Assembly: GCA_017694785.1 (NCBI GenBank)
Contig: JADIMK010000073.1
Location: 1-41,617, forward strand
DNA: 41,617 nucleotides
From: Candidatus Cryptobacteroides intestinigallinarum
Lineage (GTDB): Bacteria > Bacteroidota > Bacteroidia > Bacteroidales > UBA932
Direction of reading: 5' to 3'
The first letter of the stretch is position 1. Each line of letters opens with the position of its first letter. A model generated the notes under the pieces. It was not told where the DNA came from and ran no database searches. It saw nothing but the letters and a program-made list of their open reading frames with translations. A program made the position numbers and the translations under genes. Below, in pieces: positions 18,593-35,016 of the stretch.

Positions 18593-20026
18593 CTACATTC
18601 CGAATGAAAAGGCATTTATTCCGTCAAATATCGAGCTGACAAGGCCGAGGATGATGATTCCTGCGATGCAGAGTACAAGTCCTGTACGGGTGCCTGTTCC
18701 GCTTCTGAAGGTTGCCACAGGAGCATCGTTCCTGTTTATGAACATAGCCTTGACAACCAGAAGGTAGTAGTAGAGGGATATGACAGTATTTGCAAGTGCG
18801 ATGAACACAAGAACATGGAATCCTTTTTCAAAGGCTGCCGCAAAGATGAAGAACTTTGAGAAGAAGCCAGCGAAAGGAGGTATTCCTGCCAGTGAAAACA
18901 GGGCAAGTGTCATAGTCACTGCAAGTTTCGGATTGGTGCTGTATAGCCCGTTGTAGTCGTCCATGGTGACTTTGCCCTTGCTGTTCTGTTCTACTGCGGA
19001 TATTACTCCGAAGGCTGCGAGGTTGGCTGCCATGTAAACCAGCACATAGAAAATCAGGGAAGTCATGCCGTAGGCTGATCCGCTGATTACGGCAAGCATG
19101 ATGTAGCCGGCCTGTGATATTGAAGAGAACGCAAGGAATCTCTTGAGATTCTTCTGCCTGATGGCAAATACGTTGGCCACCGTGATGCTCAGGACAATGA
19201 CGATATAGAGCATCAGCTGCCAGTACTGTACCATAGGAGCGAATACTTTGGTCAGGATGACCATCAGGGTGAAGGCAGCCGCAGCTTTAGACACTACTGA
19301 AAGATATGATGTCACAGCTGTAGGTGCCCCCTGGTAGGTATCTGCTGTCCAGAGGTGGAACGGTACAAGTGATATCTTGAATCCGAGGCCGGTGAAGAAG
19401 AATACCATCGCCATGATCTGCAGCGGCGTCCCTTTCATTCCTGCAGTCATGTCATCGAAATAAAGGGTACCTGTCGTGCCGTACAGGAAGGAGATGCCGT
19501 AGAGCATCAGCCCGCTTGCGAACAGCGCACTGAGGATGAACTTGGCTCCGGCCTCAGCAGAATTGCCTTTGTATTTGTCGAAGGCCACAAGGCAGGCCAT
19601 AGGCACAGATGCAAGCTCCAGTCCTATGAAGAACATCAAGAAGTGTCCGGCACTTATCATGAAGTCCATTCCGATCAGAGTCGAAAGGGTGAGGACATAG
19701 AATTCCCCTCTCTTGAAGGATGTGTCTTCGCGGCTGAGCCAAGGTCCTGCCTGCAGGAACACCAGAAGAGTCCCTATTGCGAGGATGCTCTTGACAATGC
19801 CGTAGACAGGTCTGTAGATATACATTCCTCCGAATATTTCTCCTGAAGCTGTGCTGTACGGCCAGATTGTTCCTGCTATGAACAGGGTCATCAGGATACA
19901 TGTGAAAGTATGGAAGAATTTCCTTCCGCGTTCTCCGGCGATCAGGTCATAAAGGAGAACAATGACTGTTATCGCTGTAAGGGCGATCTCAGTGTACATA
20001 TATGTGAAAATTCCAGCGTAGTCCAT
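18593..20026 (-). CDS. nuoN: NADH-quinone oxidoreductase subunit N
   Basis: NuoN is one of the three antiporter-like proton-pumping membrane subunits of complex I. The 477-residue, polytopic protein has about 14 membrane helices and the conserved block [20 protein letters not shown], with the TM7-type Lys intact nine residues before the Trp. A later Lys-bearing helix is also present. It is the last gene of the operon, 13 bases after nuoM, and is followed by a strong terminator. Confidence 0.94.
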
Positions 20027-20039
20027 TTTACAGTCAGTT

Positions 20040-21524
20040 TCAGTTCAATATATGGGATATCAGAGGTAATACGCTCTCATGGATCATGTCACTCATCCAC
20101 AGCGGAGAGAGTCCAAGTCCGGCGATGCAGACTATGAGGACGATGACGGCAAGGCGTTCATCCCAGGTGGCATCCGTAAGCTTCAGATGCTCAGGGTTGG
20201 TGCAGGTGCCGTAGAGTATCTTTCCGATGAGTCGGAGGATATAGACAGCCGTGATGACAATCGAGGTGCAGGCTATGACTGTGACAACCCTATGGAATAC
20301 GTCGTTGTCCATGAATGCTCCGTTGAAGATGGTCATCTCGGCTACGAAGCCGCTGAGGCCCGGAAGACCGAGGTTGGCCAGACCGGCTATCACATAGCAG
20401 ACAGAGAGGAACGGCATTATCCTCATCAGTCCGCTCAGCTCCCTGATGTCCCTTGTGTGGGTCCTTCCGTAGATCATTCCGATGAGCGCGAAGAAGAGAG
20501 CTGTCATGAGTCCATGGCTGAGCATCTGGAGCACTGCTCCTGTGGCTGCGGTGGAATTCATCATCAGGATGGCAAACAGCACCAGACCGCAGTGTGACAC
20601 TGAAGAATATGCGTTGATATACTTGAGGTCGGTCTGTACGCATGCGGAGAATGCTCCGTAGACTACAGATATGGCAGTGAGTATGATGAATATCCAGCTG
20701 AGTTCCTGTGCCGCGTCAGGCAGCAGGTACATCGCTATCCTGAAGCATCCGTATCCTCCGAGCTTCATGAGCACTCCGGCGTGTAGCATGGAGACGGCTG
20801 TCGGGGCAGAAGCATGTCCGTCCGGACTCCATGTGTGGAACGGGAAAAGGGCTCCGAGCACTCCGAATCCTATGAAGATGATAGGGAACCATACTCTCTG
20901 CATATGCAGCGGAATGTTGTCCATCCTTGCTATTTCAGTGATTTCCATAGTGGTCGCTCCGGAACCGAAATATATGCCGAGGATACCGATGAGAATGAGT
21001 GCGGAACCACCCATGAGCATCAGCGTAAGCTTCATGGCTGAATATTCTTTCCTGCCTGTACCCCAGACTCCGATGAGCAGGTACATAGGTATGAGGGCCA
21101 CTTCATAGAACATGAACATCGTGAAGAGGTCCACTGATATGAAGAATCCGAATACACCGGTGGAGAGCAGGCAGAACCACATGAAGAATTCCTTGGTCTT
21201 GTCGGTAAGCTTCCATGAGGCGAATGTGCCGGTGAACACTATGATTGCCGAGAGCAGCAGCATCGCTACAGAAATGCCGTCGACTCCTACGGAGTATCTG
21301 ATATTGAGCGGCCTGTACCAGAGTATGCTGTCGGTCAGAAGCATCGGGGCTGCCTGTCCTTCTGCCCTCTGTCCGAGGTAGATGAATACCAGGGATATGG
21401 CCAGGGCCAGCAGGACTGATGATCCGGCCACCATCACAGCATGTATCTGCCTGGTGTTCCTTGATACCCAGAGTCCGAGCATCATCAGAAGGGGAACGGC
21501 CGGAAAAAGTGACAATATATTCAT
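20040..21524 (-). CDS. nuoM: NADH-quinone oxidoreductase subunit M
   Basis: This antiporter-like membrane subunit of complex I has 494 residues and about 14 helices. The conserved Glu of TM5 ([15 protein letters not shown]) and the [12 protein letters not shown] block are present. At the position of the usual TM7 lysine the sequence reads [13 protein letters not shown], i.e. Leu instead of Lys nine residues before the Trp. I believe this is a trait of Bacteroidetes NuoM rather than a defect, but could not check. The gap to nuoL is 73 bases, with no gene in it. Confidence 0.94.
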
Positions 21525-21597: not shown

Positions 21598-23487
21598 CTA
21601 CATCAGCATGAGCACTATCGCAAGGCAGAGAGCTCCGCCGAGAAACCATATCGCATATTTCTGCACATAGCCGCTCTGCATCTGCCTGATGGCCCATGAG
21701 ACCTTGTTCGTGACAGCGGCAAGCAGGTTCATGAAGCCGTCGACGATATGTCTGTCGAACCATGCTATAGGGGTACTGATATGTGCGAAGATGATCCTAT
21801 GTGTGATGAACTGGTATATCTCGTCGATGTAGAACCTGTGGTAGGCAGCCTTGTGGAGACCGCTGAAGCGTACGGCCAGAGAATCTGCCACGGTCCTGTC
21901 CTCCCTCATGTACATCCATGTCGCAAGCGCTATCCCGATGACAGCTGTGCAGAGGCTCACTGAAGCTACGCTCCAGTCAATATGTATATGATAGGCCTGT
22001 CCGTTGCTGCTGACGAACTCCCCGAACGGGATCCATCCGGCGACGAGGGTCACGGCGGCAAGGAATATGAGAGGGATTGTCATCGTAAGCGGTGCCTCAT
22101 GAGGCCTGTGCTCCCTGTGGAGCTCCTTGTTCTCCTTGCCCCAGAAGATGCACCAGTATAGCCTTGCCATATAGAAGGCGGTGAGTCCGGCGATGAATGT
22201 CATGACAACTCCCATGACAGGGCTGAACCTGAAGCAGGCTGTAAGTATCTCATCCTTGGAGAAGAAGCCGCTCAGCGGCCAGATACCTGCTATCGAAAGG
22301 CATGCTATCAGGAATGTGATGTGGGTCACAGGCATGTATTTCCTGAGTCCGCCCATTGCAGACATCTCGTTGGAGTGCACTGCATGGATGATGCAGCCGG
22401 CTCCGAGGAAGAGCAGAGCCTTGAACATCGCATGTGTGAAGAGATGGAACATGGATGCCATGTAGCCGAGTCCGCCTTCATGAGGATCAGCCGAAGTACA
22501 TACTCCGAGTGCAACTATCATGAAGCCTATCTGGGAGATTGTACTGAAGGCAAGCACCCTCTTGATGTCACTCTGGACGCAGGCCACAACAGCTGCATAT
22601 AAGGCAGTGAATGCTCCGACATAGGCGGTGATGTGCAGGACATCAGGAGCATAGACGATGAAGAGAGGGAACATCCTTGCCACGAGGTAAACGCCCGCCA
22701 CAACCATGGTGGCAGCATGTATCAGGGCCGATACCGGTGTAGGACCTTCCATTGCATCAGGCAGCCAGATGTGCAGAGGGAACATCGCACTCTATCCTGC
22801 ACCACCGATGAACATGAGCCCGAGGGCAAGCGGAAGCAGGGCTCTGGCAGCGCCGAGGGCCGGAGCATCAGGAGTGAATGAGAATGTCCCTGTGTAGAAG
22901 CCGTAGACCAGGATTCCGATCAGGAAGCCGAGATCTGCGAACCTTGTGACTATGAATGCTTTCTTTGATGCAGCAATTGCCTCTTTCTTTGTGTAGTAGA
23001 AACCTATGAGAAGATATGAGCTCACACCCACAAGCTCCCAGAAGATGTACATCTGGAAGATGTTGGTCGCAACCACGAGTCCGAGCATGCTCATAGTGAA
23101 GAGAGACAGGAAGGCATAGTATCTCTGGAAGCCCCGTTCTCCTTTCATGTATCCGAATGAGTAGATGTGCACCATAAGGGATACTGTGGAGATGACAATC
23201 AGCATCATTACTGAAATCGGGTCGAGCATGACTCCGAGATCTATGTGGAGGCTGCCGTTGAACGGGAGCCATACCGTATTCCAAGGTATCAGGGTAGGGA
23301 AGACTCCCTCGGCATTCCTGCCGGCCCCGAAATATGAAAACGCCGTCCAGTAGCTCAGGAGTGCTACGGCAGCAGTGACCGCAGTGCCGATGATTCCGGC
23401 GACCGTATTCCTGAGCTTTGTCCCGAGCAGACCTATGAAGATGAAGCTCAGGAACGGAAGCAGAAGTATAAGTACTGTATATTCCAT
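21598..23487 (-). pseudogene. nuoL: NADH-quinone oxidoreductase subunit L, interrupted by an in-frame TAG
   Basis: NuoL is the distal proton-pumping subunit that also forms the long lateral helix of complex I. The gene is full length (629 codons plus stop) and its two halves are in one frame, but codon 232 is TAG (22792-22794). Upstream the protein reads LMFIGGAG, and downstream SAMFPLHIWLPDAMEGPTPV continues the conserved sequence without loss. The missing residue is the invariant Lys of GKSAQ/GKSAM, Lys229 in E. coli, which is essential for pumping. A single A-to-T change (AAG to TAG) explains it. As read, translation yields a 231-residue fragment; restart at ATG 22785 would give 395 residues. 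Both parts look under purifying selection, so the mutation is recent, a sequencing error, or suppressed. Confidence 0.85.
22792..22794 (-). other. nuoL: In-frame amber codon at the conserved NuoL lysine
   Basis: On the minus strand the codon order is GCA-GGA-TAG-AGT-GCG-ATG. TAG is a normal stop elsewhere in this window (tig, clpX, and nuoI of the same operon), so general recoding of TAG is unlikely. Confidence 0.9.
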
Positions 23488-23522: not shown

Positions 23523-23831
23523 CTACCATTTCATCTTGTCCAGATTCTTCACCTGGATGTTCTTCATGTTGCGGTATATGTTGATGATGATGGCTATCGC
23601 GACAGCTGTCTCAGCCGCACTGATTCCGATGGCGAAAAGCGAGAAGAAGAAGCCTTCTAGCTGTCCCGGGAAAAGGAAGCGGTTGAATACCACGAAGTTG
23701 ATGTCTACCGAGTTGAGGATCAGCTCTACAGAGATAAGCATCGCAAGCAGGTTGCGTCTGGTGAAGAATCCGTAGATTCCCACGAACATCATTATCGTAG
23801 AGACTATGAGGTAATATTCCATGTGTACCAT
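23523..23831 (-). CDS. nuoK: NADH-quinone oxidoreductase subunit K
   Basis: A 102-residue protein with three membrane helices, the usual size of NuoK. It carries the two conserved membrane glutamates, in ISVELILNSV and ISAAETAVAIAI, which form part of the E-channel coupling quinone reduction to pumping. An AAGGAAC stretch lies 7-13 bases before the ATG at 23831, so I prefer this start to the ATG three codons later. nuoJ ends 12 bases upstream and nuoL begins 35 bases downstream. Confidence 0.95.
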   Translation of the reverse strand: MVHMEYYLIVSTIMMFVGIYGFFTRRNLLAMLISVELILNSVDINFVVFNRFLFPGQLEGFFFSLFAIGISAAETAVAIAIIINIYRNMKNIQVKNLDKMKW

Positions 23832-23843
23832 AGCTGTTCCTTT

Positions 23844-24353
23844 TTATCGTTTTCTTGCAATCATGATTCCGCCTATTATACAGGCGAGCAGGAGTATGCT
23901 TATGACCTCGAACGGCAGGAGATATCCGTATTTGTCCGGGCTCATGAGGGCATGTCCGATTTCCCTTACAGGAAGCTCTCCGTGTTCGAACACCGGGCTC
24001 AGGAACCTGTTCTTCAGGGTCACGGTCAGGCAGATGCACAATGCGGCCAGAGTCGCCACAAGGCCTGCGAAAAATTTCCCTTTCTTCAGCTTCTCCGCCT
24101 GGTCACCTTCACTTGAGGTAAGAAGGATGGAGAAAACATAGAGCACTGTGATGCCGCCGGCATATACAAGCAGCTGCACGGCACCGAGGAATGAATAGTT
24201 GAGCTGGAAATAGATTCCGGCTGTCCCGAAAAGGACGAAAAGCAGATATGTGGCTGCCCTCAGGATACGCCTGGTGGTCACTGCCAGCACCGCACTGACG
24301 GTTATGAAGACCGCCAGGACGGCAAATACTATCATGTCGAGAGTTATGTTCAT
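23844..24353 (-). CDS. nuoJ: NADH-quinone oxidoreductase subunit J
   Basis: The 169-residue membrane subunit has five helices. The first (IVFAVLAVFITVSAVLAVTT) leads into RRILRAATYLL, and the third carries the conserved LLVYAGGITVLYVF motif with the pi-bulge region. It belongs to the proton-translocating membrane arm next to NuoK and NuoH. The start lies 2 bases after the nuoI stop, so translation is probably coupled. Confidence 0.94.
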   Translation of the reverse strand: MNITLDMIVFAVLAVFITVSAVLAVTTRRILRAATYLLFVLFGTAGIYFQLNYSFLGAVQLLVYAGGITVLYVFSILLTSSEGDQAEKLKKGKFFAGLVATLAALCICLTVTLKNRFLSPVFEHGELPVREIGHALMSPDKYGYLLPFEVISILLLACIIGGIMIARKR

Positions 24354-24355
24354 GG

Positions 24356-24796
24356 CTATTGCTTATTCAATGTTTTGACCAGCTTGCTCCTTGTGAACAC
24401 TGCGTGTTCGAAATCTGTCGTGAACTCGATCGCATGGTGCGGGCATGCGTTCACGCACAGATGGCAGAACATGCATGAGCCCAGGTCATATTCATATTTC
24501 ACCAGATGCTTCTTCGGCTTGCCTGTAGCCGGGTCAGTGATCATCTCTGAAGTTATCTTTATGGCTCCGTTAGGACAGGCCATCTGGCAGAGTCCGCAGG
24601 CTACACACCTGTTGTTGCCGTTTTCATCAAGCGGCATGACAAGGTCGCCGCAGAATCTTTCGTTCATCTTGAGGACAGCCCTGTTCTCCGGATACTGTTC
24701 TGTGATCTTAGGGGTGAAATATTCCCTGAAGGTCACCTTCATGCCGGTGAGCAGTGAGCCGATTCCCTTGAAAAGTCCTTTTATATAATTCCACAT
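24356..24796 (-). CDS. nuoI: NADH-quinone oxidoreductase subunit I (2x[4Fe-4S])
   Basis: NuoI carries clusters N6a and N6b, which pass electrons to NuoB. Two ferredoxin-type motifs are complete: CVACGLCQMACP and CMFCHLCVNACP. Length is 146 residues from ATG 24796 (MWNYIKGLFKGI), placed 2 bases after nuoH; a longer in-frame reading back to 24877 would lie inside nuoH and is not family-like. The stop is TAG, which shows that TAG terminates translation within this same operon. Confidence 0.94.
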   Translation of the reverse strand: MWNYIKGLFKGIGSLLTGMKVTFREYFTPKITEQYPENRAVLKMNERFCGDLVMPLDENGNNRCVACGLCQMACPNGAIKITSEMITDPATGKPKKHLVKYEYDLGSCMFCHLCVNACPHHAIEFTTDFEHAVFTRSKLVKTLNKQ

Positions 24797-24798
24797 GG

Positions 24799-25875
24799 CT
24801 AAAAATGCAATTTGAATACAACAACCACAACCATAAGAAGAAGGTTCAGAAGTCCTATAGGTACCAGATACTTCCATTCAAGGGTGAGGATCTGGTCGAT
24901 CCTGAGCCTAGGGAATGTCCATTTGATCCACATCAGCAGCCATACTACGAAGAAGGCTTTCACAAAGAACCAGATGAATCCAGGGATCCAGTCCATGACG
25001 GCGTTGAAACCGTCAAGTCCAGGGATGTGCAGCGGCATCCATCCTCCGAGGAAGATGGTCGCGGCGATGCTGGACACTATGAAGAGGTTTACGAATTCTG
25101 CCACATAGAAGAGGCCGAAATGCATTCCGGAATATTCGGTGTGGTAGCCGGCGGTAAGTTCGGATTCTGCCTCAGGCAGGTCGAACGGTCCGCGGTTGAC
25201 CTCTGCGTTTGCTGCAATAAGATAGATGACGAATGAGATTATGGCAGGAATGTGTCCTTTGAAGATAAACCATCCGTCGGCCTGTCTCATGACGATCTCA
25301 GAAAACTGCATAGTGTCGGTGAGCACTACGATTGTGAGGATTGAAAGTCCGACCGAGAGTTCGTAGCTGATCATCTGGGCGCCGCTTCTCATCGCACCGA
25401 TGAGGGAGAACTTGTTGTTGGAGCTCCATCCGGCAAGCAGGATTCCAACTATTCCGATGGAAGATGCGGCCATGAAGAAGAGTACACCGACATTGAAGTC
25501 GAATATCTCAAGTCCACGGCTGAACGGGATGCAGGCAAAGGCCATCACAGAGGCCAGTATCACAAGATATGGAGCAAGGTTATAGAGGAACTTATCCGAA
25601 TGCCTGATGGTTATGATCTCCTTGGTCAGCATCTTGAATACGTCGCAGATGACCTGGACGCTTCCCCATGGACCGACCCTTGTAGGTCCGAGACGGCACT
25701 GGAAGGCAGCGCAGACCTTGCGCTCCATATATATCATTATTATGGCGATCACGACATACACGAGCAGGAGGCAGATGCCGATGGCAAGGCACTCGATGAA
25801 GATGGCCAGGCCTTCCGACATGACTGAAGTCAGCTGTGTATGGATCCAGTTTGTAACTATACCGAAATCAAACAT
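24799..25875 (-). CDS. nuoH: NADH-quinone oxidoreductase subunit H
   Basis: NuoH forms much of the quinone-binding cavity and links the redox arm to the pumping arm. The 358-residue protein has about nine helices and the family motifs ERKVCAAFQCRLGPTRVGP and EVNRGPFDLPEAESELTAGY, the latter with the acidic residues at the cavity. A C-terminal RLRIDQILTLEWKYLVP block is typical. It lies between nuoCD and nuoI with short gaps. Confidence 0.96.
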   Translation of the reverse strand: MFDFGIVTNWIHTQLTSVMSEGLAIFIECLAIGICLLLVYVVIAIIMIYMERKVCAAFQCRLGPTRVGPWGSVQVICDVFKMLTKEIITIRHSDKFLYNLAPYLVILASVMAFACIPFSRGLEIFDFNVGVLFFMAASSIGIVGILLAGWSSNNKFSLIGAMRSGAQMISYELSVGLSILTIVVLTDTMQFSEIVMRQADGWFIFKGHIPAIISFVIYLIAANAEVNRGPFDLPEAESELTAGYHTEYSGMHFGLFYVAEFVNLFIVSSIAATIFLGGWMPLHIPGLDGFNAVMDWIPGFIWFFVKAFFVVWLLMWIKWTFPRLRIDQILTLEWKYLVPIGLLNLLLMVVVVVFKLHF

Positions 25876-25909: not shown

Positions 25910-27535
25910 TTATCTGTCTATGTCAGGTACAACGTAGTCGAGAGTACCTCCTATCGCTATCAGGTCGGCGATCTTGGCATTCCTTGATATCGTGTCTATG
26001 CAGGATACAAGAGGCAGTCCGGTAGAGCGGAACTTGAGCCTGTACGGGTATTTGTCACCGTGGCTTTCGAGATAGACTCCGAATTCTCCGCGGCTGCCTT
26101 CAACTGCTGTGGACCAGCTTCCTTCCGGCAGCTTGATGACAGGCTTTACCTTCATCTGCCATTCTCCTTCAGGAATGTTGTCGATGAGCTGCTCAATGAT
26201 GTTGAGGCTCTGCTCTATCTCCTTGACTCTTACCATATAGCGGTCGAAGCAGTCTCCGTGGCTGAAGGTGATCTCCTTGAAGTCAACCTTGTCATACATG
26301 GCGTAAGGATGCCTCTTGCGCACATCGCAGGCCCAGCCTGAGGCCCTTCCTGTACCGCCTGTCGCGCCGAAGGATATAGCATCCTCCCTGGAAAGTACAC
26401 CGGTGCCGATCAGCCTTGTCCTGACAATCACATTCCCGGTGAATATGTCGTGGTATTCCTGAAGCTTCGGCCTCATGTACTTTATGAACTCCTTGGTCTT
26501 CCTGACGAAGTCCGGATGTATGTCGGCCTGTACTCCACCGATGGTGTTGTAGGTCTGGATGAGACGGCCTCCTGTGGTCTGCTCGAGGATATCCAGCACC
26601 TTCTCCCTGTCCCTGAAGCCAAGGAAGAATACCTCCAGGGCTCCCATGTCCTGTGAAAGGCAGGCGATGAAAAGCAGGTGTGAATCAATCCTCTGGAGCT
26701 CATCCATGATTGTACGGATGCACTTGATCCTGTCGGATACCTCAAGTCCCATGGCCTTTTCTATGCATGCGCACAGGGCATGGCGGTTCTGCATGGCACC
26801 GAGGTAGTCGAGCCTGTCGGTAAGTCCGAGGGTCTGAGGGTAGGTGAGGGATTCGCAGAGCTTCTCGATGCCCCTGTGGATATAGCCGCAGTGTACATCG
26901 ATTTTCTTTATCGTTTCTCCTTCAAGGGATACCCTGAACCTGAGCACTCCGTGGGTGGCAGGATGCTGAGGCCCTATGTTGATCACATATTCCTGGTCTT
27001 CGAAGAGGGGATGACGGCGGATGATGTAGTCTCCTGACGGAGTCATCTCGTAGCTCGGGGAGTCGTCATGAGTCTCCTCATTCTCCATGTTGAGAGGGTT
27101 GAGCGACATGTCATAGTCCTTGCGCAGAGGGTAGCCTTTCCAGTCATCCCTCAGGTAGAGCCTCCTGAGATCAGGATGCCCTACGAAGGTAATTCCGAAG
27201 AAATCGTATGCTTCCCTCTCATTGAACAGGGCTCCTTTCCAGAGGTCATGGACTGAAGGAAGGCTAGGGTTCTCCCTGTCTTCGGCAGATGTAGCCACGA
27301 CAACGTTTTCTCCAGTAGATGTATTCTCAAGGTGATAGACGCATCCGAGTCCTTCTTCTCCCCAGTCTACTCCGGTGAGGCTGCGGAGGAAATCGAATCC
27401 TTCTTCCTTCAGCTTTTCAGCCAGATGCCTGAAAGCCTGGGCAGGGATCCTGTACATGCCGTCACCTCTGCCGTCCCATACGGCCGATGGCTCGATGGCG
27501 GCAATCCTTTCTTTTATATCGGTCTTGTTCTCCAT
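25910..27535 (-). CDS. nuoCD: NADH-quinone oxidoreductase, fused subunits C and D
   Basis: The 541-residue protein joins NuoC (about residues 1-150, with NEREAYDFFGITFVGHPDLRR) to NuoD (from about 180). NuoD motifs are NIGPQHPATHGVLRF at its start, HCGYIHRGIEKLCE, RIDSHLLFIACLSQDMGAL and the C-terminal DYVVPDIDR. NuoD contributes the quinone-site His and Tyr facing NuoH. Fusion of C and D is common in Bacteroidetes and enterobacteria. The linker (about 150-175) is acidic. It is 12 bases downstream of nuoB. Confidence 0.96.
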   Translation of the reverse strand: MENKTDIKERIAAIEPSAVWDGRGDGMYRIPAQAFRHLAEKLKEEGFDFLRSLTGVDWGEEGLGCVYHLENTSTGENVVVATSAEDRENPSLPSVHDLWKGALFNEREAYDFFGITFVGHPDLRRLYLRDDWKGYPLRKDYDMSLNPLNMENEETHDDSPSYEMTPSGDYIIRRHPLFEDQEYVINIGPQHPATHGVLRFRVSLEGETIKKIDVHCGYIHRGIEKLCESLTYPQTLGLTDRLDYLGAMQNRHALCACIEKAMGLEVSDRIKCIRTIMDELQRIDSHLLFIACLSQDMGALEVFFLGFRDREKVLDILEQTTGGRLIQTYNTIGGVQADIHPDFVRKTKEFIKYMRPKLQEYHDIFTGNVIVRTRLIGTGVLSREDAISFGATGGTGRASGWACDVRKRHPYAMYDKVDFKEITFSHGDCFDRYMVRVKEIEQSLNIIEQLIDNIPEGEWQMKVKPVIKLPEGSWSTAVEGSRGEFGVYLESHGDKYPYRLKFRSTGLPLVSCIDTISRNAKIADLIAIGGTLDYVVPDIDR

Positions 27536-27547
27536 ACTGATATCGAT

Positions 27548-28198
27548 TTAAGCGAGTCCGGACTCATCATATTCCCTGAAGTCCTCGGTCTTGTTGGTGT
27601 CCTCCCTCATCTTCTTCTCATATTCCTTTTCGCTGATGCTCTTGTTGACTCCACCGAAGAATCTCTGGGCCTTGACCTTGCGCTGAAGCTGCATAAGTCC
27701 GTAGAGCATGGCTTCCGGTCTCGGAGGACATCCCGGTATGTAGACATCCACAGGGATGATCTTGTCGACTCCGTTGACAACATGGTAGGATTTCTTGAAA
27801 GGGCCTCCGCTGATGGCGCAGCCTCCTGTAGCAATCACATATTTGGGATCAGCCATCTGGTCATACAGACGTTTGAGCACAGGTGCCATCTTGTTGGTGA
27901 TAGTGCCTGCCACCATGATGAAATCGGCCTGACGTGGGGATGATCGCGCCACTTCAAACCCGAATCTGGCGAAATCGTACCTTGCGGCACCAATCGCCAT
28001 GAATTCTATACCGCAGCAGCTCGTGGCGAAGGTAAGAGGCCAGAGGCTGTTGCTGCGTCCCCATTCGATCACATCGTCCAGACATCCGATGACCACATTG
28101 GTGCCGTGGTCTCGGAGCTCCTTGAGCATCTGTTCGATATATTCGTTGTCGTTGAAATCTTCATATTTCATCGACTTGATGTTGACATTCCTTTTCAT
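27548..28198 (-). CDS. nuoB: NADH-quinone oxidoreductase subunit B
   Basis: NuoB holds cluster N2, the last iron-sulfur centre before quinone. The tandem cysteines in [12 protein letters not shown], the Cys in [10 protein letters not shown] and the Cys in [10 protein letters not shown] supply the four ligands. With ATG 28198 the protein has 216 residues, longer than many NuoB because of an N-terminal ~40-residue extension and a charged C-terminal tail. A TTG at 28207 and an ATG at 28171 are alternative starts. nuoA lies 36 bases upstream. Confidence 0.95.
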
Positions 28199-28234
28199 TT
28201 CATGCAATCTATAAAAACATCATTCCGGTCAGGA

Positions 28235-28585
28235 TCATTTCCATTCGAGTGCTCCCTTCTTCCATGCGTATGCAAGTCCGAGTATAAGTATCAGCAGGAA
28301 GAAAAGTACGCTGACCAGACCGAAGACACCGAGATCCTGCACTACCACTGCCCATGCGAAGAGAAATACTGTCTCCACATCGAACATGAGGAACAGGATG
28401 GCAAAAAGATAATAGCCGACCTTGAACTGCATCCAGGACCTGCCCCTTGTCGGCATTCCGCACTCGTACGGTTCACCTTTCTGGGGGTTGTAGGAGCGCG
28501 GCGCTATGGCCTTTGCAATTCCGACGGCTGCTGTCACCATGATGATGGCGATCAGGATAACCACTACCAGCAATATGAAATTCAT
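28235..28585 (-). CDS. nuoA: NADH-quinone oxidoreductase subunit A
   Basis: The first gene of the operon encodes a 116-residue membrane protein with three helices and the conserved YECGMPTRG loop, followed by QFKVGYYLFAILFLMFDVETVFLFAWA with its acidic pair. NuoA helps shape the quinone site with NuoH. No nuoE, nuoF or nuoG is present in the window. Bacteroidetes complex I normally lacks these NADH-module genes, so the natural electron donor may be ferredoxin or another protein. Confidence 0.95.
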   Translation of the reverse strand: MNFILLVVVILIAIIMVTAAVGIAKAIAPRSYNPQKGEPYECGMPTRGRSWMQFKVGYYLFAILFLMFDVETVFLFAWAVVVQDLGVFGLVSVLFFLLILILGLAYAWKKGALEWK

Positions 28586-34451: not shown

Positions 34452-34769
34452 ATGAGCAGAATAAAAGGGCTCACAGTACTGTGTTGCGTGGTACTGTGCA
34501 GCCGGATTACCTGTGCTGGACAGACAGTCATGGGCATAGATGAATTGTTCAGGCTTGCAGACGAGAACAGCACCAGCATACGGTCATACGAGACCGGAGC
34601 TGAGTCTGCGGACGAGGCCCTGAAGGCAGCGAAGGCGCAACGGCTTCCGGAAATAGGGATTTCTGTTTCAGCCAGCTATCTGGGAAACGGACGGCTCTGG
34701 GACAGGGATTTCACTTCCGGCATGAAGATCGACATTCCGCATTTCCCGGTACGGGGCTGCTGTAGATGA
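34452..34769 (+). pseudogene. 5' remnant of a TolC-family outer membrane efflux gene
   Basis: Signal peptide (about 1-23) and the first ~75 mature residues of a TolC/OprM-type protein survive: MGIDELFRLADENSTSIRSY, then ADEALKAAKAQRLPEIGISV and SYLGNGRLWDRDF, ending IPHF near base 34745. TolC proteins of Bacteroidetes efflux operons run about 430-480 residues. Here the frame loses homology after IPHF, reads seven unrelated residues and stops at 34769. The break leads straight into the 3' end of a different gene in another frame, so this is a deletion scar and not a complete gene. Confidence 0.75.
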
Positions 34770-35016
34770 TGTGGCCATATCACGTGACCCTGCCCAGATG
34801 GGAGGATTCATCGAGAGTTTCATGACAGGTATCATGGAGGTCAGCGTCAAGCAACTGTATGGGGTTGCTGCCTATGCGTGCATACTGCTTCTGCTTCTCT
34901 TCCTTCTGTATGATGCTCCTGTGAGACGCAGGCTCAAGCTCATGCCGGCCTGGAGGACAGTCAGGGATGAGATCGCTGCTTCGTTCAGACGGGAAACCCA
35001 GAAGAAGCAGATGTAG
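34747..35016 (+). pseudogene. 3' remnant of an MFS (EmrB/DHA2-type) drug-efflux gene
   Basis: From about 34747 the frame reads GAAVDDVAISRDPAQMGGFI, then a final membrane helix (LYGVAAYACILLLLLFLLYD), and ends in a basic cytoplasmic tail (APVRRRLKLMPAWRTVRDEI). This matches the C-terminal end of 14-helix MFS pumps that Bacteroidetes encode after a TolC and an HlyD/EmrA gene. About 90 of some 500+ codons remain; a GTG at 34771 is the only nearby start. It could at most make an ~81-residue one-helix peptide. Confidence 0.7.

Follow-up and report, generated by a model that had tools for sequence, protein, structure and literature searches.

A single in-frame TAG interrupts the otherwise open nuoL gene at codon 232, a conserved lysine codon, in the assembly of Candidatus Cryptobacteroides intestinigallinarum. 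We conclude that this stop probably reflects a knock-out of an ordinary kind, recent and tolerated, and does not mark a new genetic code or a new pump.

The interrupted nuoL gene and its operon

The window, by which we mean the whole stretch of 41,617 nucleotides analysed here, is a complete contig (C65) of a draft assembly of 2.24 Mb in 102 contigs, estimated to be 90.95% complete and 2.39% contaminated. Its minus strand carries a complex I operon in the order nuoA-B-CD-H-I-J-K-L-M-N; inspection of the ORFs of this operon revealed no nuoE, nuoF or nuoG within it. The relevant features are as follows.

28235..28585, minus strand: nuoA, open; NuoA models give the best NCBIfam match, at 107.5 bits and thus below the cut-off of 163; matched without stops at six of the seven loci of relatives
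27548..28207, minus strand: nuoB, open, with the start that the ORF finder assigns; 384.8 bits, cut-off 283; likewise in 7 of 7 relatives' loci
25910..27535, minus strand: nuoCD fusion, open; subunit D model over its cut-off
24799..25875, minus strand: nuoH, open; 330 bits, cut-off 305
24356..24877, minus strand: nuoI, open; best match TIGR01971, 102.5 bits, just below the cut-off of 113
23844..24353, minus strand: nuoJ, open; NuoJ models give the best match, under the cut-off (89.4 of 154 bits)
23523..23831, minus strand: nuoK, open; NF004320, 91.4 bits, cut-off 57
21598..23487, minus strand: nuoL, 630 codons (terminal TAG counted), with one interruption
22795..23487, minus strand: open part of nuoL ahead of the stop, residues 1-231, with Proton_antipo_N and the start of Proton_antipo_M
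22792-22794, minus strand: in-frame TAG, nuoL codon 232, at the position of E. coli Lys229
21598..22785, minus strand: downstream open part of nuoL, 395 aa, from an ATG 6 nt past the stop, with the rest of Proton_antipo_M; putative reinitiation product
20040..21524, minus strand: nuoM, open; TIGR01972, 427.5 bits, cut-off 263.8
18593..20026, minus strand: nuoN, open; TIGR01770, 373.8 bits, cut-off 332.6

Curated profile cut-offs were passed by nuoB, nuoCD, nuoH, nuoK, nuoL, nuoM and nuoN, while nuoA, nuoI and nuoJ scored below theirs and were named also from gene order. At the start assigned to it by the ORF finder, nuoI runs into nuoH. Since a stop stands at residue 26 in three relatives, followed by a methionine at residue 28, translation probably begins at Met28 of the ORF.

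The nuoL frame begins with an ATG at 23487 and contains stops only at codon 232 (TAG) and codon 630 (the terminal TAG), so that our codon scan bears out the initial annotation, which had described a lone TAG with an open frame on either side. With the TAG read as lysine, the product scores 613.7 bits against the NCBIfam NuoL model NF005141 (cut-off 556); the family match extends over the full length of the protein and the gene is placed among other complex I genes. Alignment to NuoL of E. coli K-12 sets codon 232 opposite Lys229 in the block AVGKSAQLPLQTW, which agrees with the position proposed in that annotation. The residues E144, D178, H254, K305, H334, H338, K342, K399 and D400 (E. coli numbering), which we take to belong to the charged path, are unchanged. 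We found no second nuoL in a search of the genome (an assembly 90.95% complete), the two other matches being nuoM and nuoN. The gene shows two traits of a unitary or strain-level nonsense pseudogene, namely a stop in a gene that is intact in relatives and the lack of a second intact copy in the assembly.

Outside the operon, the plus-strand region 34452-34769 encodes the N-terminal 105 aa or so of what matches an outer membrane efflux protein (OEP, PF02321, E 2e-9, residues 30-96) before ending early, and the frame at 34741-35013, for which no Pfam match was obtained, resembles by eye the end of a membrane protein. The region 34452-35013 resembles an internal deletion, and is perhaps a second broken gene in the window. 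Most proteins encoded on the plus strand between 9116 and 17880 are unplaced; the run includes one with DUF6175 and one with SPFH/Band 7 and GYF_2 domains; several of the proteins scanned from this region gave no Pfam family.

Conservation of the codon among relatives

Comparison of nuoL in related genomes, which the initial annotation had put forward as a check, was carried out on 109 distinct contexts around the site (our own and 108 others, up to 180 nt) from loci with at least 50% protein identity. The codon specifies lysine in all 108 related contexts (87 AAG, 21 AAA). Among 400 genomes of the same genus, nuoL was detected in 42, our own (G000) included, and none of the other 41 carries an internal stop. 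These counts rest on limits of E <= 1e-150 for nuoL and 1e-100 for nuoCD, which could hide fragments; at E <= 1e-3, no nuoL fragments were found over 101 genomes, the other matches being paralogues of 26-31% identity. NuoL-like proteins of 29% identity are present in some same-genus genomes that do not possess nuoL. Loss of nuoL alone at the species level was not seen, given that nuoL occurs in 42 and nuoCD in 43 of the 400 genomes; in the one genome that accounts for the difference (G075), the match to nuoM stops 9 bases short of its contig end, where nuoL would follow.

The closest named NuoL relatives are Bacteroidales records, e.g., that of Candidatus Merdivivens pullicola (89%). Three protein records are much closer and look, by their sequences, as if they came from the same species or nearly so. 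P0001 is identical to our NuoL at 616 of 629 residues and possesses the lysine. P0066, also with the lysine, is identical at 594 of 598 aligned residues and lacks 31 residues near the C-terminus. P0125 matches at 197 of 199 residues and continues into an out-of-frame tail, the lysine region being absent. Among the protein matches listed for both nuoL halves in a clustered database, none was an identical fragment of 231 or 395 residues; one of these searches scored 8000 candidates.

Selective constraint on nuoL

The dN/dS of our nuoL against seven same-genus loci ranges from 0.052 to 0.082 and that among the relatives from 0.036 to 0.083 (median 0.063, 20 pairs), values that are rough and blind to very recent change as dS is near saturation (0.8-2.0). 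Before the stop the ratio of our gene is 0.046-0.075, and after it 0.044-0.085. The corresponding values are those of nuoM (0.059-0.075 with six loci; relatives 0.029-0.063), nuoCD (0.044-0.071; relatives 0.036-0.058) and of nuoN (0.063-0.090 with six loci; relatives 0.077-0.108). Two of the loci (L194 and L197) are very alike, and one or two pairs of relatives per gene were skipped owing to low or undefined dS. The low ratio of nuoL, resembling that of its relatives, suggests a young lesion: as judged from the sequence comparison, normal constraint probably acted on the gene until a short time ago, and long-standing decay is disfavoured.

We also counted the departures of our sequence in columns where the relatives agree, with at least four of them per column and with L197 left out as a near-duplicate. 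Our nuoL departs at 5 of 188 columns before the stop, which is within the range of the relatives, and at 11 of 332 after it, which exceeds all six relatives (0 to 7 of 328). This excess could point to a somewhat older lesion; a longer own branch is, however, enough to explain it, since our departures also exceed those of all relatives in nuoA, nuoB, nuoJ and nuoM. The counts in other genes of the operon are 11/418 for nuoM, 15/347 for nuoN, 14/444 for nuoCD, 10/140 for nuoJ and 9/118 for nuoI.

Possible decoding or reinitiation at the stop

A rival reading is that the TAG is decoded as lysine or an analogue, by read-through or recoding. In its favour, the stop sits at an invariant functional residue and the dN/dS after it resembles that before it. 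Yet none of the 42 tRNA genes detected with the Rfam tRNA model has the anticodon CUA (ARAGORN assigned anticodons at all 42 places, 30 + 12), in a set which is incomplete, since tRNA-Phe is absent from it. The best PylS match in the genome reaches 18.5 bits against a cut-off of 178.15, which one of 14 control genomes exceeded, and release factor RF1 is present (493.6 bits, cut-off 423). TAG terminates 62 of 234 sampled ORFs of at least 100 aa and 49 of 182 of at least 200 aa (greedy, putative ORFs, both nuoL pieces included, in 298,186 bases made up of the window and 13 further stretches, ~13% of the genome); it also ends nuoL itself, and is found at the site in none of the 108 relatives. Stop-codon recoding is thus not supported, and we give it next to no credence. 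The initial annotation had been right to doubt general recoding, whereas the suppressor tRNA or inserted analogue that it kept as an option finds no support. It had also held that lysine in all relatives, together with no suppressor tRNA in this genome, would make the stop an error or a simple recent mutation; this is the pattern observed, in an assembly that is 90.95% complete and in which tRNA-Phe was not found either. Nor does a split but expressed NuoL appear at all probable, though we rate it slightly above recoding. Here, termination at the TAG would be followed by a fresh start of the ribosomes at the ATG 6 nt beyond it, producing two pieces without the lysine of TM7, and the complex would pass electrons and pump less. 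The ATG lies at 22785-22783 with an AGGA 13-10 nt upstream of it, antiporter-domain profiles match both pieces, and the downstream frame is open with a dN/dS in the normal range. The same methionine (SAMFPLHIW) is, however, present in the proteins of the relatives inspected, so its position is not an adaptation to restarting; the combination of stop and restart is not conserved, as the other nuoL genes among the 42 of the genus are free of internal stops. Local RNA folding is unremarkable (MFE -51.3 vs a shuffle mean of -57.5, z = +1.54), and a role of RNA structure around the stop was rejected on this basis.

A phage origin was likewise rejected: the segment 22000-23500 gave no megablast match in phage records, and a 21-base pattern across the stop had 0 exact matches in viral contigs.

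Mutation versus consensus error

It is probable, in our estimation, that the TAG is a recent real nonsense mutation, which would leave the strain without a working membrane arm of complex I. Against it stand the lack of a second record with this stop among the matches listed, the A-to-T change implied by the commonest codon of the relatives, which is a transversion (transversions being less common than transitions), and, as regards tolerated loss, the fact that loss of nuoL alone was not seen at the species level. The main competing explanation is a consensus, base-call or strain-mixture error in the draft, the nuoL of the organism being intact. The state of the assembly (102 contigs, 90.95% complete, 2.39% contaminated), the lysine in all 108 distinct relatives without a second stop record among the matches listed, and the near-identical protein records with other gaps of ~100 bp, possibly assembly noise, all speak for such an error. 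However, a lone substitution with a good frame on either side is not the usual fault of assemblers, and with a consensus error rate of 1e-5 or less, our estimate for the entire genome is below a single spurious stop. Moreover, the 32 in-frame, stop-separated pairs (at least 120 codons on each side) in the 298,186 bases yielded no recognisable further case of a gene cut by a nonsense codon: nuoL is the only pair shown to be one protein, six of the 31 others, judged in full, read like two genes each, and the rest were judged from their ends. We therefore consider an error unlikely. From the three options of the initial annotation, the real nonsense mutation, ranked second there, fits best; the suppressor or analogue is not supported, while error, ranked first, is the less likely of the other two. 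Within the library and terms used, our literature search turned up no paper describing a nonsense allele of nuoL in Bacteroidales from the gut.

The exact coincidence with the functional lysine had been given weight in the initial annotation, and this we could not support, since a stop anywhere removes the rest of the protein. There are 174 other single-base changes that would create a stop in nuoL, in 123 other codons, each removing the part downstream, and the match with the lysine needs no special cause. The chance of landing on codon 232 is ~1 in 175, and that of landing on one of five codons which we assign to the charged path (E151, K232, K309, K356 and K411) is ~3%; both figures are post hoc. 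On the former, we rejected the idea that the lysine was specially targeted, and the location of the stop on a proton-path lysine is probably a coincidence. The case warns against taking a stop at a functional residue for recoding.

Broken pump-subunit records in close relatives

Three near-identical protein records carry other gaps in pump subunits. P0125 resumes at 22789 after nuoL codon 199, i.e., with 101 bp missing and out of frame, and the gap of P0066 in nuoL comprises 31 residues, or 93 bp, and is in frame. P0241, a NuoM record with two member sequences, is identical to our protein at 206 of 206 residues and resumes at 20782 after codon 206, with 124 bp missing, out of frame. These sizes (93, 101 and 124 bp) were derived by placing the protein ends on the DNA of the window and by eye, and no clear repeat was seen by eye at the two out-of-frame junctions. 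The gaps either hint at recurrent loss through strain-level lesions or are assembly noise, their sizes being compatible with assembler faults.

Taken with the TAG, these records would amount to four independent lesions (TAG, P0125, P0066 and P0241) if one Bacteroidales species were shedding the distal proton-pumping arm, under selection or by free tolerance, with the other nuo genes open; we regard this as doubtful, even more so than a consensus error at the TAG. Should reads confirm the other lesions, one could test for selection against the pump arm; if they do not, the case is an ordinary one. The idea of nuoL as a special hot spot of breakage was rejected, as a control with nuoM likewise turned up a broken record near-identical to our protein (P0241). 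The nuoL records listed include short, truncated and frame-shifted ones (at least 22 short records, some of which may end with the contig), and broken records come from other taxa as well; since clustering of the database makes broken sequences conspicuous, it does not lend itself to estimating a rate. In another lineage, five different frame-shifted or gapped NuoL records (P0131-P0134 and P0169) have one N-terminal sequence in common.

Possible tolerance of complex I loss

If the nonsense mutation is real, translation would halt after residue 231, ahead of the second half of the antiporter domain, and residues 232-629 would be missing unless ribosomes restarted at the ATG 6 nt further on. Judging from work on E. 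coli, complex I without full NuoL would assemble poorly or pump abnormally. According to PMC3274701, that study and one earlier study cited therein found no assembled complex I in E. coli without NuoL, while another study cited there obtained near-normal electron transfer with halved pumping; NuoL truncations are described in the same paper as lowering the amount of complex I, which was fragile and showed little quinone reductase activity. The supposition of the initial annotation that a strain-level mutation cripples pumping while leaving the rest intact may hence be too mild if assembly fails, though the near-normal electron transfer recounted in that source runs the other way. PMC4938563 cites K229A as severely reducing complex I activity, and reports almost no effect of it in the Bacillus complementation assay of that paper. 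Those E. coli mutants (PMC3274701; PMC4938563) resemble our case in the loss of NuoL sequence or of Lys229. They differ in being engineered in an enzyme with an NADH module, whereas here a natural or artefactual stop removes everything from residue 232 onward.

We propose that loss of NuoL would probably be tolerated in this organism because its operon is without NADH-module genes, its genome encodes a complete Na+-NQR, and neither nuoL nor nuoCD was matched in 357 of the 400 genomes sampled from the genus. The genes nqrA to nqrF are consecutive in our genome, each over its NCBIfam cut-off, and an NqrF match was obtained in 96 of 101 same-genus genomes (above the cut-off in 90). Within the genus, nuoL and nuoCD co-occur sparsely (42 and 43 of 400 genomes); among 150 high-quality genomes, each was found in 23. 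The closest known parallel in gene content is the NUO of B. fragilis 638R (PMC7002350), which is encoded by a nuo operon without nuoE, nuoF and nuoG in a genome that also carries Na+-NQR. Its deletion left NADH:quinone activity and competitive colonisation of mice unchanged (PMC7002350). The difference is that nuo was removed there by the authors, with no measured defect, while here a stop lies within nuoL. Dispensability of complex I is not certain, since the authors of PMC7002350 still suggest an energy-conserving role for NUO, fed with electrons by an unknown donor. Premature stops do arise in gut commensals: in a study of B. fragilis within its host, as told in PMC11379459, they accounted for 28 of the 325 nonsynonymous mutations that had appeared de novo. 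Unlike the mutations recounted there, ours comes from a single assembly without a time series and with no evidence of selection.

If real, the nuoL stop would be a snapshot of an anaerobe possibly losing complex I through a point mutation in a pump subunit. The complex concerned would be one that has no NADH-module genes and for which Na+-NQR provides a backup, and only a minority of the genomes sampled from the genus have nuo at all.
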